From: a virus
IMG/VR virus record: IMGVR_UViG_3300031539_000035
Location: 1-56,561 of that record
Direction: 5' to 3' (one strand)
Length of the DNA: 56,561 bases
Of the stretch, positions 18,465 to 23,653 are shown piece by piece. Made by a program: the position numbers and the translations under genes. The first letter of the stretch is position 1; each line of letters begins with the position of its first letter. The notes below the pieces were generated by a model. It saw nothing but the letters and a program-made list of their open reading frames with translations. It was not told the DNA's origin and made no database searches.

Positions 18465-18553
18465 GATCTATGGAGAATGGCTCTTGTTCTATAACTTTGG
18501 GCGCCGATGTGAAAAGATTGTGAACTCACAAACCGGGGGGCTTGGAGGCAGGT

Positions 18554-21226
18554 ATGGCGAGCATCGTCGAGCGGCTGGAGGGAGGCCTTTCGCGCGCAGC
18601 GGGCAGGCTGCTCCCCAGCGTGCGAGCGCAGGCCGCAGAGGCTCAGGCGTTCAGGGTGGCCTTCCGCGACAAACCGTGGGAGTTTGACGCCTACAACGGC
18701 CTCCTGAGCGAACTGGATGCCGAGACTCTGGCCTTCCTAGTGGACCAGCTCCAGTACGAGGAGGTTCTGCACCTAGGAGGCGCTGGCAAGCCGTCGTCAG
18801 AGTCCGACCGGATGCGCCAGGTGGAGCGTTCCCGCTGGCAATATCGGTGGGACCCGCTCACGCGCTGGGTGGTACGACTCTGGACGTATTTTGGCTACGG
18901 GCTGAACGTGGACATCGTGCCAGACGACGAAGCGGCGGTGCCGGTCTGGGAGGAATACTGGACGGCCAAACGAAACCGGCCAGTGTTCGGGCAGCGGCGG
19001 TTGCGTTACAACTCGGACGTCCTGCTGAGGGACGGCGAGTTGTTTTTCGTGAACTTTGTGTCCGAGGTAACCGGAGAGGTGACGACGCGGCGGTTGCTCA
19101 CGGACGAGGTGACCGAGATCGTGCGGCACCCGGACGACCGGGACACGGTGCTATTCTACAAGCGGGCGATCACCAATGGGCCCATGGCGGGCCAGGCGCT
19201 CTACTATCCCGACTGGACGGCTGAGCCTGACGAGCTGGACGCTTGGTGGGAGAAGGCTATCGGCACCGCGACCGGCGCTATTCGGATGGACGTCGCCATG
19301 CCGGAGACGGGCAGAGCCTACACGACCTGTAACGTGGTGGCCGTGCAGATCAACCTTGGCACCGAGGGGCGCGGCTGGCCGCAGATGACCAGCGGCCTGA
19401 CATGGAGCAGCGCCTACGGGAAGATCCTCCAGGACCGAGCGGCGGTGGTGCGCAAGCGCGCCATGTACGATAGTAAGGTGAAGGTGAAGGGGGGCCAGCG
19501 AGCCTTGGCCTACGTACAGGGGCGCGTGCAGTCGAGCAACGTCACCCAGGGCGGCATGGAGCGCAACCCACCAGCGTCCGCCGGTTCCGACTGGCTAGAG
19601 AACGAGGCGGTGGATAGGTCGCCGATCAACATGGGGAACTCTGGCGCGCAGGAGGCCGAGCTGGACAGCACGGCCATCTTCGGCATGGCCACACTGGCCG
19701 GCGGCCTGTTCCCTCACTACGCCGGCAAGGGCGAGGCGTTCCGGCTGGCAACTGCGTGCTACAGTGATGATACTGAGGTCCTGACCGAGAACGGATGGAA
19801 GCGCTATGAGGACTATCGGCCTGGAGAGCGGATAGCAGCTTATGACCATGAACATCGCCGTATCGTGTACACGGTTCCACGGGCCATGCACCTGTACGAG
19901 TACGAGGGACCGATGGTGCACCTACGAGGACGCACCGTGGATGCGCTGGTGACTCCCAATCACCGGATGCTTGTGCTGAACGAGAATAACGAGCCCCGCT
20001 GGGAAATCGTGGAGGCGGGCCAGTTGCCCAGCCGGTTTGCCTTGCCAAGCAAGGCTCTACTGGGCAATGCGGATGGGGTCTCGCATTTTCTGTTGCCTGC
20101 TGCGGGTTATAAGCCGGCACGATTCCTGCCAATGAATCGGTGGCTCCAGTTCCTTGGATGGTGGATTGCTGAGGGCTCAGCCTATGAGAGCAAGACGGGC
20201 ATAGTGCAGACATCTCTCGTGCAGATGGCGAGCAATGTGGATGAATGTCAGGAGATAGAGCGTGTTCTGGCCGACTTGCCATTTAACTTTTGCTGCGATG
20301 TGAATGCCCATGGTATGAAGCGTTGGCGCACCTCAGAGCGAGCACTCTTTGACTGGCTGGTACAATATTGCGGGCGACTCCAACCAGAACGCAGGATACC
20401 CGAGTTCGTGTTTGGCATGGATACTTGCCAGAGCAAACTATTGGTGGACGCTCTTTGGCAAGGAGACGGCTTCAGTGATGATCGGGAGCACTATCGGGGA
20501 GCACTGACCTCCACAAGCCTGGGGTTGCTAGATGATGTGCAGCGGCTTTTGATCCTATATGGTGAATGGGGGCAGATCACCGTACAGCGAGAGGCGGGAA
20601 CCCATCCCCAATGTCCGAACAGTCTTGCTTGTTATTATCTCTATCGAGCAGACAGAGATAAACTCTCTCTAGCACGCACGAAGAATGTGACGGAGGAGCA
20701 GTATAGCGGAATGGTCTGGTGCTTCGATGCCTCACCATACGGCATGTTCATAACGAGGCGAAATGGCTATCCACTTATCGCAGGCAACAGCGCAATGGAA
20801 ACGCCGATTCGGCGTGGCTTCTCCGACTACCAGTTGACGTGGGCTGACGTGTTCCGGGATGTCTGCCAGATCGTGCTAGAGGCGGCGCAGAAGTACGGCG
20901 GGGCGTCCTTTGAGACCATTGCTTGCGACGTGAACCAGGATGCTCTCGTGAACATGGACCCGCTGGCGGTGCAGCAGGCGGCCACGGCCATCGCGGCGAT
21001 TGCGACGACCGGGGCCGTGCCGATGGACGAAGTGGAGCGGGCCGGGAATCGCGTGCTGGTGCTGGCCTTGCAGAGCCTTGGCGTGGGGGACGCGGACGAT
21101 GTGGTGAACCCGCCTGAGGAAGAGGGCGAGGGGCTGCCGCCGGTGGTTGAGCGGAACCTGATTGGCGAGGCGGCGGACCGGATCATCGCTGGTTTGGAGT
21201 TGGAGGGCAACCATGCGGAAGCGTGA
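18554..21226 (+). CDS. Portal protein precursor containing a LAGLIDADG intein
   Basis: 890 residues from ATG 18554 (GGAGG at 18544-18548). The flanking exteins add to about 546 residues and look like a phage portal of the long type (KPWEFDAYNGLLSELDAE, RWQYRWDPLTRWVVRLW, and a C-terminal SDYQLTWADVFRDV segment). The intein occupies residues 402-745, between Ala-Thr-Ala and Ser-Ala-Met. The portal dodecamer forms the DNA channel and terminase dock. Placement after terminase and before the minor head gene supports the call. Confidence 0.85.
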   Translation: MASIVERLEGGLSRAAGRLLPSVRAQAAEAQAFRVAFRDKPWEFDAYNGLLSELDAETLAFLVDQLQYEEVLHLGGAGKPSSESDRMRQVERSRWQYRWDPLTRWVVRLWTYFGYGLNVDIVPDDEAAVPVWEEYWTAKRNRPVFGQRRLRYNSDVLLRDGELFFVNFVSEVTGEVTTRRLLTDEVTEIVRHPDDRDTVLFYKRAITNGPMAGQALYYPDWTAEPDELDAWWEKAIGTATGAIRMDVAMPETGRAYTTCNVVAVQINLGTEGRGWPQMTSGLTWSSAYGKILQDRAAVVRKRAMYDSKVKVKGGQRALAYVQGRVQSSNVTQGGMERNPPASAGSDWLENEAVDRSPINMGNSGAQEAELDSTAIFGMATLAGGLFPHYAGKGEAFRLATACYSDDTEVLTENGWKRYEDYRPGERIAAYDHEHRRIVYTVPRAMHLYEYEGPMVHLRGRTVDALVTPNHRMLVLNENNEPRWEIVEAGQLPSRFALPSKALLGNADGVSHFLLPAAGYKPARFLPMNRWLQFLGWWIAEGSAYESKTGIVQTSLVQMASNVDECQEIERVLADLPFNFCCDVNAHGMKRWRTSERALFDWLVQYCGRLQPERRIPEFVFGMDTCQSKLLVDALWQGDGFSDDREHYRGALTSTSLGLLDDVQRLLILYGEWGQITVQREAGTHPQCPNSLACYYLYRADRDKLSLARTKNVTEEQYSGMVWCFDASPYGMFITRRNGYPLIAGNSAMETPIRRGFSDYQLTWADVFRDVCQIVLEAAQKYGGASFETIACDVNQDALVNMDPLAVQQAATAIAAIATTGAVPMDEVERAGNRVLVLALQSLGVGDADDVVNPPEEEGEGLPPVVERNLIGEAADRIIAGLELEGNHAEA
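19757..20788 (+). mobile_element. Portal intein with LAGLIDADG endonuclease
   Basis: 344 residues. Begins with Cys1 (CYSDDTEVLTENGW, block A), has block B TPNH, LAGLIDADG helices FLGWWIAEG and LVDALWQGDGF, block F VWCFDASPYGMFI and ends LIAGN before Ser+1. The usual penultimate His is a Gly, a tolerated but less common variant. Excises from the portal after translation and should cut intein-free portal genes to spread. Confidence 0.9.
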
Positions 21227-22029: not shown

Positions 22030-23653
22030 GACGAGCATCTTGCGCGGCTACGTCTGGGCTCCCGATAGCCAGCGCTACCGGGATAGCGCCGGGCGCTACG
22101 TGGCCCGCACCCGGATCACGGCCCTCCTGGAGCGTTCGATCAACGGGCGAGAGCGACGCATCCTCGACGGCGCGCAGGCGCTCTACGATGGCAAGATCAC
22201 GCCCAAAGTTTACGCAGCGCGAACGGCTGAGTTGGTAAAGCGCCAGCACCTCCAGAACAGCGCGCTGGCTGCCGGCGGTTGGGACAGACTCACGCCAGCG
22301 GACTATGGGCGTATCGGCGGCAACCTGCGGTCCGAGTACAAGCACTTGGCCAACCTGGCGAACGGCATTGCCGATGGCACGGTGTCCACAGCACAGGCAC
22401 AGAATCGGCTGCACATGTACATGGGGAACGCGCGCAAGGAGTTTTACCAGGTCGAGCGGGCGCACTTGCCTAAACCGAAGGCGGGCATGTCGCGGCTGGA
22501 GCGAAGGCAGCTCAATCCGGCGGACTCCTGTGACGACTGCATCGGCTATGCCGCGCAAGGATGGCAGGCTGAGGGTGTATTGCCTGTGCCGGGAGAGGGG
22601 AGCCAGTGTTTCCCTGGAAGTTTATTGGTCATGGCCGAAGGCATTGTCAAAGGCTTTAAACGAGAATATATTGGTGATCTAGTCGAGATCACCACATCCA
22701 GTGGCCACAAGCTGTCCGCTACCCCGAATCACCCGATAGCGACCCCGTCTGGTTGGGTTGCTATCAGTGCTCTGCATGAAGGCAACCAAATCATCTGTGA
22801 CTTGCGAGCAAAATTGGTGACTGGGACTTATCCAAATATAGTAAACATCCCAACCCCAATTAGTGAGGTCTTTGATGCGCTTGCGTTCGCGGGCCATGTG
22901 CAAAGGATTCCCTCTTCGCCTGTGGACTTCCACGGCGATGGTCGGCATCAAGAGATCCACGTTGTATGGGCCGATGACTGCTTGCCGAACAGGATGAAGG
23001 CTCTTTGCTATGAGAGCCTCCCGGACTTGCGCTTCCCCCATGCCTATAACGGCGAAATGTGCACCACGTGTCTGATGTCCTCTGGCGATTTCAGTGTGCA
23101 TATGGGCATCCAAAAGCTCGCGGGGGCGGCGGGGGGCAAACCCTTCTTTCTCAAGGATTCTCTTGACTGTATGAGGGGAAGTGCCGTATCTCCGGCATAC
23201 GCCACGCAGGGATTGCCCGGAAGCATAGGCGTTGGCGATCTCGGCACAGGGAAGCATGGCGATTCTGGCTTTAGAACGGGCTTTGTTGATCAGAACATTT
23301 TGTCCGAACCCACGGACACGGATCCCTGCATTGAGCAATCGCCTACGGATAGTGACTCGGCAGACGCCATACCTTTTGGAGAGAGAAAGCTCGGACTCGC
23401 CATCGATATACCGCTTGACGATCTCATCAATTGGCAGAGCGATCCTGACTTTGGCGTTACTTCGATAGTCAGCGCTCACAGAATTCCTTTCGCGGGATGT
23501 GTCTACAATTTGACCACGGAACGCCACTATTATACAACGGCTGGTATCATTGTCAAAAATTGCAATGGAAATTGTCGCTGCGCTCTTGACCGAAAGGAAA
23601 CGCCGATAGCGGACGCGGGCAACATGATCGGCACGGGAGGGGCGACGGCGTGA
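22016..23653 (+). CDS. Minor head protein (SPP1 gp7/Mu F type) precursor with intein
   Basis: 545 residues from GTG 22016. Exteins total 227 residues: a helical N-terminus (NAQALYDGKITPKVYAAR-type segments) and the Cys-rich end of phage head morphogenesis proteins, DSCDDC...PGEGSQ joined to CNGNCRCAL. The intein, residues 198-515, interrupts exactly before CNGNC, the most conserved part. These proteins attach to the portal and are needed for head assembly or DNA ejection. Without splicing the Cys cluster would be split. Confidence 0.85.
   Translation: MAKRKTSILRGYVWAPDSQRYRDSAGRYVARTRITALLERSINGRERRILDGAQALYDGKITPKVYAARTAELVKRQHLQNSALAAGGWDRLTPADYGRIGGNLRSEYKHLANLANGIADGTVSTAQAQNRLHMYMGNARKEFYQVERAHLPKPKAGMSRLERRQLNPADSCDDCIGYAAQGWQAEGVLPVPGEGSQCFPGSLLVMAEGIVKGFKREYIGDLVEITTSSGHKLSATPNHPIATPSGWVAISALHEGNQIICDLRAKLVTGTYPNIVNIPTPISEVFDALAFAGHVQRIPSSPVDFHGDGRHQEIHVVWADDCLPNRMKALCYESLPDLRFPHAYNGEMCTTCLMSSGDFSVHMGIQKLAGAAGGKPFFLKDSLDCMRGSAVSPAYATQGLPGSIGVGDLGTGKHGDSGFRTGFVDQNILSEPTDTDPCIEQSPTDSDSADAIPFGERKLGLAIDIPLDDLINWQSDPDFGVTSIVSAHRIPFAGCVYNLTTERHYYTTAGIIVKNCNGNCRCALDRKETPIADAGNMIGTGGATA
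22679..23479 (-). CDS. Vsr-like homing endonuclease with two HTH domains, antisense inside the intein
   Basis: 266 residues on the - strand from GTG 23479, preceded by AAAGGAA (23484-23490); stop at 22681-22679. Two HTH units come first (LPIDEIVKRYIDGESELSLS at about 16-35 and SLRGVCRRYGTSPHTVKRI at about 90-108). The C-terminal domain has GPYNVDLLMPTIAVEV (Asp175, Glu184), then RERKRIKDLTNWGWDVYYIW, the Vsr/EDxHD-type PD-(D/E)XK nuclease pattern used by some homing endonucleases. Its codons are exactly in register with the sense codons. It covers nearly all of the intein and has its own promoter. The longer GTG start at 23527 would lie upstream of the predicted transcript start. Confidence 0.88.
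   Translation of the reverse strand: MSADYRSNAKVRIALPIDEIVKRYIDGESELSLSKRYGVCRVTIRRRLLNAGIRVRGFGQNVLINKARSKARIAMLPCAEIANAYASGQSLRGVCRRYGTSPHTVKRILEKEGFAPRRPRELLDAHMHTEIARGHQTRGAHFAVIGMGEAQVREALIAKSLHPVRQAVIGPYNVDLLMPTIAVEVHRRRGNPLHMARERKRIKDLTNWGWDVYYIWISPSHQFCSQVTDDLVAFMQSTDSNPTRRGRYRVIRGSGQLVATGCGDLD
23529..23556 (-). promoter_or_regulatory. Perfect sigma-70 promoter on the - strand, inside intein blocks F/G
   Basis: Read on the - strand: TTGACA (23556-23551), 16-base spacer, TATAAT (23534-23529). Transcription should start near 23522 and run into the endonuclease RBS and GTG at 23479. The same bases encode YYTTAGIIVK of the intein on the + strand. Confidence 0.85.

Follow-up and report, generated by a model that had tools for sequence, protein, structure and literature searches.

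An intein in a viral minor head gene very likely carries its homing endonuclease gene in antisense, with codon boundaries shared between the strands

The window analyzed here, a viral DNA stretch of 56,561 nucleotides (IMG/VR record IMGVR_UViG_3300031539_000035, positions 1 to 56,561), contains a minor head gene interrupted by an intein whose DNA also encodes, on the reverse strand and in exact codon register, a second protein with the hallmarks of a homing endonuclease (Table 1). A mobile intein with an antisense homing endonuclease gene is very likely the best explanation for this arrangement, although splicing, use of the promoter, timing of expression, and cleavage of the empty site are inferred, and no wet-lab evidence exists for splicing, cleavage, or antisense expression.

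Table 1. Features of the intein-bearing head gene and of the antisense gene within it (window coordinates)
Feature	Position	Strand	Evidence or remark
Host gene, MuF/SPP1-gp7-type minor head protein, intein interrupted, 545 aa	22016..23653	+	
Intein, 318 aa, Cys1 to Asn318, followed by Cys+1	22607..23560	+	PF14890, E = 3e-6
N-terminal splicing blocks A and B, codons 1-60	22607..22786	+	Sense-strand selection
Hairpin across antisense stop codon, possible terminator	22672..22694	-	z = -2.8 vs dinucleotide shuffles
Antisense homing endonuclease gene (very likely assignment), 266 aa, GTG start, TAG stop, codon boundaries in common with sense	22679..23479	-	
PD-(D/E)XK/Vsr-like nuclease domain, residues 147-238	22766..23041	-	AF2 pLDDT 91-98; Foldseek 3r3p, prob 1.00
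Putative catalytic Glu184 (AVEV), opposite sense Phe108 of DFHGD	22928..22930	-	Invariant in A2
Putative catalytic Asp175 (YNVD)	22955..22957	-	Invariant in A1 and A2
Sense residues 126-267, disordered linker, likely for the most part a shadow of the antisense gene	22982..23407	+	pLDDT <50
Glu149	23033..23035	-	Invariant in A2; ≥90% in A1; outside scan pattern
Second HTH unit, residues 78-111	23147..23248	-	PF13384, E = 7e-7; AF2
First HTH unit, residues 17-50	23330..23431	-	PF04218, E = 3.5e-6; AF2 three-helix unit
C-terminal splicing blocks F and G, residues 278-318	23438..23560	+	pLDDT ~95; sense-strand selection
Shine-Dalgarno-like AAAGGA, 5 nt 5' of GTG	23485..23490	-	
Sigma-70 promoter-like TTGACA-16-TATAAT, 12/12, opposite the C-terminal intein blocks	23529..23556	-	p = 0.025 vs synonymous shuffles

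The head gene is located 3' of a portal gene that bears its own intein. Its N-extein matches PHROG phrog_24776 (E = 1.6e-33), and the gene also matches the head protein profile phrog_15127 (E = 7.6e-34). The insert has Cys1 (22607), the block B motif TPNHP, VYNL, a C-terminal Asn, and Cys+1, and thus satisfies the terminal-residue criterion for an intein. The profile of the sense-intein alignment (A3), in which C1 and N318 are invariant, matched the RadA, KlbA, and RecA inteins in the PDB, and an AlphaFold2 (AF2) model built with 46 relatives forms a HINT domain from both ends of the product (pLDDT ~95), which Foldseek matched to the RadA and RecA inteins. The criterion of a HINT fold with blocks A, B, F, and G is therefore met by Pfam (PF14890), profile matches, AF2, and Foldseek. 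Two residues differ from those of relatives: the penultimate position, mostly His (HN) in the family, is Lys (VKN), and Cys replaces the His preceding VYNL. Some active inteins are without a penultimate His. The insert is thus very likely an intein in a MuF-type minor head gene, with splicing inferred in the absence of wet-lab evidence. The sense product shows no endonuclease fused between blocks B and F: Pfam recognizes only Intein_splicing in this product, and the AF2 model is disordered from residue 126 to 267.

On the other strand, the TAG stop (22681 to 22679) lies opposite a sense CTA (Leu) codon, in identical register. Though the open frame extends upstream past the GTG at 23479, with a further GTG at 23527, the former, chosen as the start in a preliminary description made from the sequence alone, is the probable start because AAAGGA (23490 to 23485) precedes it. 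In the AF2 model of the antisense product (mean pLDDT 87), based on an alignment of 63 antisense protein sequences (A2), a pair of three-helix HTH units is accompanied by a long helix and by a domain of PD-(D/E)XK type. Foldseek ranked the catalytic domain of the homing endonuclease I-Bth0305I first among PDB structures (3r3p; probability 1.00, TM 0.62 on the target), at a modest E value of 0.02. Profile searches recovered the same structure (E = 2e-6) along with 3hrl (E = 7e-5) and the tandem-HTH protein 2lvs (E = 2.5e-9), and PF18741 (REase_MTES_1575) is matched by 30 of the 63 relatives. The invariance of Glu184 in A2 is conditional, this residue being part of the scan pattern; in A1, an alignment not selected by pattern, the position is Glu in 17 of 17 sequences. 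The criterion of a PD-(D/E)XK-like fold with the acidic residues of I-Bth0305I/Vsr-like enzymes is met, and profile and fold together make it very likely that the product is a nuclease of this group; that it cleaves the intein-free allele is inferred and untested.

Most of the preliminary description is upheld by these results. It had claimed an intein at 22607 to 23560 with a complete splicing domain in a minor head gene (supported by Pfam, profiles, AF2, and the Foldseek HINT matches), no endonuclease motif in the central sense residues, two HTH units and a Vsr-like domain encoded from 23479 to 22679 on the reverse strand (supported by Pfam, profiles, and Foldseek), and codon boundaries shared between strands, with TAG opposite CTA. 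The homology searches it had suggested for both translations returned HINT for the sense product and an I-Bth0305I-type nuclease for the antisense product.

An antisense stop in the shared register requires a sense TTA, CTA, or TCA codon, and these are rare in GC-rich genes, so that an open mirror frame alone says little. The stop-free antisense run has a log10 P of -0.72 in the window and of about -0.5 to -1.7 in GC-rich members of the family, as opposed to -5 to -12 in AT-rich members (Vibrio, Aaphi23, and KMB36). Among 19 phage-record inteins found by tblastn, without recourse to the active-site pattern, every one has 0 interior antisense stops, whereas ~5 to 19 are expected from base composition; in one Vibrio phage, 18 reverse stops occur across the 320-codon N-extein but none inside the intein. 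Over 117 inteins, antisense stops number 682 in 48,793 extein codons and 1 in 28,488 interior codons (398 expected), with the caveat that the viral-contig part of this sample was chosen by the enzyme active-site pattern, which biases it toward intact copies.

The exact register is itself accounted for by coding constraints. By dynamic programming over synonymous codons, all 109 enzymes tested can be encoded with the mirror frame open in register 0, since only TTA, CTA, and TCA need be avoided, whereas the two remaining antisense registers would each force a protein change on 74 of the 109. Translation through the intein therefore demands the exact register, which is the sole antisense register in which any enzyme can be fitted by synonymous choice while the other strand stays open.

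Substitution patterns reveal which strand is selected. Because the window copy has no close nonidentical relative, these figures come from the family (21 independent intein pairs) and not from the window itself. The first position of a sense codon is the wobble position of the antisense codon. Substitutions at sense positions 1, 2, and 3 number 276, 114, and 415 in the N-terminal splicing part and 152, 99, and 256 in the C-terminal part, as opposed to 1,505, 708, and 1,113 in the middle (position 1 against position 3, binomial P = 2e-14), where position 1 exceeds position 3 in 19 of 21 pairs. The peak at position 3 in the splicing parts and at position 1 in the middle means that purifying selection switches strand within the element. 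Similarly, among codons of the middle with a single change, 731 changes are synonymous and 445 nonsynonymous when read as the antisense protein; read as the sense protein, 329 are synonymous and 847 nonsynonymous. In a family-wide BLOSUM profile, the conserved strand flips at codons ~60 and ~280, antisense similarity exceeding sense similarity across most of codons 61 to 270 and the reverse holding in the splicing parts. The switch of selection between strands within the intein family is thus shown.

These results bear on the preliminary suggestion that the sense intein must tolerate whatever the antisense enzyme dictates, which is supported but requires correction: the sense middle is likely to be largely a shadow of the enzyme. 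The near-invariant sense motif DFHGD, for instance, looks meaningful but is what results when the antisense active site (V/I)AVEV is read from the other strand. In the opposite direction, intein block B (sense TPNHP) gives rise to antisense YRVIRG, indicating that both genes truly overlap at their ends. That description would have been refuted by relatives in which the sense middle was conserved and the antisense frame broken; the search for relatives and the per-strand comparison of substitutions that it had proposed found the opposite over most of codons 61 to 270, with the antisense frame kept and the middle under antisense selection.

Putative expression signals for the antisense gene lie opposite the C-terminal splicing blocks. 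In relatives, its start codon is the complement of the block F histidine (CAT in 72 and CAC in 13 of 109, yielding ATG or GTG), and its Shine-Dalgarno sequence is the complement of the residues next after this histidine, TTGGAGGTTRTANACRTG. The HVYNL of block F reads RTR-NAC-RTG on the other strand and tends of itself to encode GAG-RTG there, for which reason the null model for these and for the promoter signals was a synonymous shuffle of the sense codons. Shine-Dalgarno-like cores occur opposite block F in 92 of 109 members, when 52 are expected (z = 8.4). The window copy (AAAGGA-N5-GTG) deviates from this pattern, as Lys replaces the penultimate His and Cys the His before VYNL. Promoter scores reach P < 0.05 in 25 of 109 members (~5 expected), and the claim of a promoter, which rests on sequence signals without expression data, is confined to the window and part of the family. 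A terminator at the antisense stop was tested for family-wide and not found (mean z = -0.25), so the hairpin in the window is not a family trait.

A second correction to the preliminary description is that the element is no isolated case: inteins with antisense endonucleases form a widespread class. In tblastn searches, the sense query found 124 phage records and the antisense query 109. Single-protein scans of viral and genome contigs returned only the identical contig or no match, and A1 was too diverse for locus searching, so a degenerate DNA pattern (YN-x-D...AVE) was used in its place. This identified at least 120 IMG/VR stretches, 114 of them in the family, and at least 119 matches in bacterial genomes, 20 of them family members (prophage-type loci); these counts are lower bounds, and the 114 of 120 figure is conditional on the pattern, which holds two active-site motifs. 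The opposite strand is open in the identical register in all 114 viral loci. Both N- and C-terminal splicing motifs stand in one frame in 104, and the remaining 10 are without just one, mostly because the fetched stretch stops inside the intein. In bacterial genomes, the other strand encodes the N-terminal splicing motif, in register 0, at 19 of the 20 loci (19 were testable, all in the same register). A Salmonella copy with fragmented frames (GE_vB_HIL) was excluded, its record being marked UNVERIFIED.

Members occur at enterobacterial, Vibrio, Pseudomonas, environmental, and actinobacteriophage (Vivi2 and Sedona) loci. Host genes are mostly MuF-type head genes, and the others encode the large terminase, head maturation protease, uracil-DNA glycosylase (one with a DNA polymerase A domain), and dCMP deaminase. 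A free-standing relative is present in Acinetobacter phage IME285 (L016, MH853786.1, 455-1348), where it converges on an adjacent intein-free MuF head gene; the strand opposite the free-standing gene is broken by 15 stops.

Several loci merit separate mention. One viral gene (L025, 149-943 and ~1395) apparently contains two family inteins, its open reading frame having two antisense nuclease motifs and two Intein_splicing stretches. The REQ3 member (L022, 1306-3084) is shortened, with an intein of ~225 aa that seems to start with Ala instead of Cys and an antisense frame from which most of the HTH part is gone. A gene of Virus Rctr197k (L006, KX853510.1, 616-1968) annotated as "head morphogenesis" is actually a dCMP deaminase (PF00383) with an intein of this family in its zinc-binding motif, and the annotation apparently derives from the intein. 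The phrog_15127 profile poses a similar annotation trap: because it includes the intein, unrelated intein-bearing genes (protease and terminase) match it as "head protein." In the window itself, the portal gene (18542-21226, + strand), two genes upstream of the head gene, has a second intein of the ordinary type (Hint_2 and LAGLIDADG_3 matches), such that neighboring structural genes contain one intein with a sense and one with an antisense endonuclease.

Comparisons among phages indicate that these inteins move. With a Jersey-type head gene plus intein as the query, 504 phage records match, of which 70 cover ≥80%; the rest of the listed matches mostly comprise two flanking pieces with no insert between them. 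Phage K1G, for example, has the intein-free site HPN^CRS where ZCSE7 has HPN-intein-CRS. Nucleotide identity between Salmonella phage ZCSE7 and Escherichia phage E2010 is 96.2% in the intein, against 71.9% in the exteins, and Sedona and Vivi2 present the opposite case, with exteins 94.9% and inteins 48.5% identical at the same insertion site. These two pairs carry the signature of homing and of reinvasion, and intein-free sister phages together with inteins more alike than their host genes point to mobility and horizontal transfer, with cleavage of empty sites inferred.

In the mechanism proposed, a mobile intein would have its homing endonuclease encoded by a gene of its own, antisense to the intein and aligned with it codon for codon. 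Ribosomes would translate the head gene through the intein, and the HINT domain (residues 1 to 120 and 278 to 318) would excise an insert containing a floppy linker of 140 residues. A reverse-strand promoter and ribosome-binding site opposite the C-terminal splicing blocks would drive a two-HTH, Vsr-like nuclease of the I-Bth0305I type, which would cut the intein-free head gene, with repair copying the intein in. A reverse promoter of its own would permit early production of the enzyme through host polymerase, with the head gene late. Both folds, the strand switch of selection, the family-wide register, the Shine-Dalgarno enrichment, the intein-free alleles, and horizontal transfer are established computationally. 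A bolder reading, on which we would not commit either way, is that these elements constitute a large undescribed class of inteins in which the antisense start and ribosome-binding site lie opposite block F and the promoter can overlap blocks F and G; if so, a single stretch of DNA would have one strand serving protein splicing and the opposite strand serving gene expression.

Three other explanations were considered. The endonuclease frame could be a relic, an antisense gene once captured that is now decaying without homing. Homing cycles normally include a phase of decay, the window copy does not have the canonical start site of the family, and the REQ3 copy is shortened (225-aa intein). This is nevertheless very unlikely, given the near absence of interior stops (1 in 28,488 codons), the invariant catalytic residues, the suppression of antisense nonsynonymous changes (731 synonymous to 445 nonsynonymous, compared to 329 to 847 for sense), and recent transfer (ZCSE7 and E2010). 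A second possibility is that the enzyme has a role other than homing: as a regulator (given its two HTH units), as a nuclease against intein-free competitors in coinfection, or in collaboration with free-standing copies. Phage homing endonucleases do exclude competitors, and a free-standing homologue sits beside the intein-free head gene in IME285, but the enzyme is consistently found within inteins, at conserved positions of several unrelated genes, as would suit homing, and this renders the alternative similarly improbable; moreover, an attack on intein-free competitors would be the very reaction that homing involves, so that the alternative is only in part a rival. Finally, the idea that the antisense frame arises merely by accident from the coding of the sense protein, as a GC-rich mirror frame with a conserved mirror image, draws on the weakness of the stop-free run in GC-rich members (log10 P of -0.72 in the window) and the genuine mirror similarity at block B (TPNHP to YRVIRG), but it is all but excluded by the AT-rich members (log10 P of -5 to -12), the Shine-Dalgarno excess over synonymous shuffles, the HTH and nuclease homology and confident fold of an antisense product facing a sense middle with neither, and the excess of middle substitutions at the antisense wobble position, the codon-position test by itself refuting it.

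The mobile intein with an antisense endonuclease gene, the reading we prefer, resembles several known systems in part. I-Bth0305I/EDxHD (Vsr-like) homing endonucleases (3r3p) have the same nuclease fold and acidic residues, but I-Bth0305I, which its PDB title calls a homing endonuclease, carries the annotation of a mobile intron protein, whereas the antisense nuclease follows two HTH units and is encoded by the reverse strand of an intein. Canonical inteins (PI-SceI and PI-PfuI type), of which the portal intein is one, likewise have HINT, insertion at conserved motifs, and presence or absence among sister phages. Their LAGLIDADG or HNH endonuclease normally forms part of the sense protein, fused between blocks B and F, a criterion that the head gene element does not meet: its enzyme is antisense and separate, and its sense middle is unstructured. 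The nearest published idea in the literature searched is the ShiLan domain (PMC11855218), also an in-frame insertion in a phage gene with an endonuclease readable solely in another frame. It differs in having an HNH endonuclease in an alternative frame relative to the host gene and no splicing domain, and its defining features are not met by the window element, with its HINT domain and antisense Vsr-like nuclease; neither "antisense" nor "opposite strand" is mentioned in the text of PMC11855218.

For overlapping reading frames, PMC11855218 cites Gosselin, Arsenault, and Gogarten (bioRxiv 2025, 10.1101/2025.01.02.630785), whose title announces a noncanonical intein architecture in phages of the Vivi2/Sedona group; its actinobacteriophage scope cannot cover the enterobacterial, Vibrio, Pseudomonas, and environmental members. 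Minor head inteins of Jerseyvirus and KMB36 (PMC8425127 and PMC11162368) are the same elements and belong to the family (L005 and L013), but they were reported as inteins alone, the antisense gene going unmentioned in the intein passages of both papers. Papers on cryoconite and on Lactobacillus matched the literature terms and were rejected as not concerning an antisense endonuclease in an intein. The preliminary claim that no intein with this arrangement had been described is thus partly upheld: no description was found in the literature searched, but the 2025 preprint, which lay outside that search, may hold Gordonia cases.

The family is a clear example from nature of opposite strands of the same codons encoding two functional, unrelated proteins, and selection has been measured to shift from one strand to the other inside one element. 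It also explains the exact register, in which only synonymous codons need change. Surveys of inteins restricted to the sense frame would label such elements "mini-inteins" or endonuclease free. The arrangement also suggests how selfish elements residing in late structural genes could produce their enzyme early, and the family is a source of compact two-HTH nucleases with natural targets in conserved phage genes.
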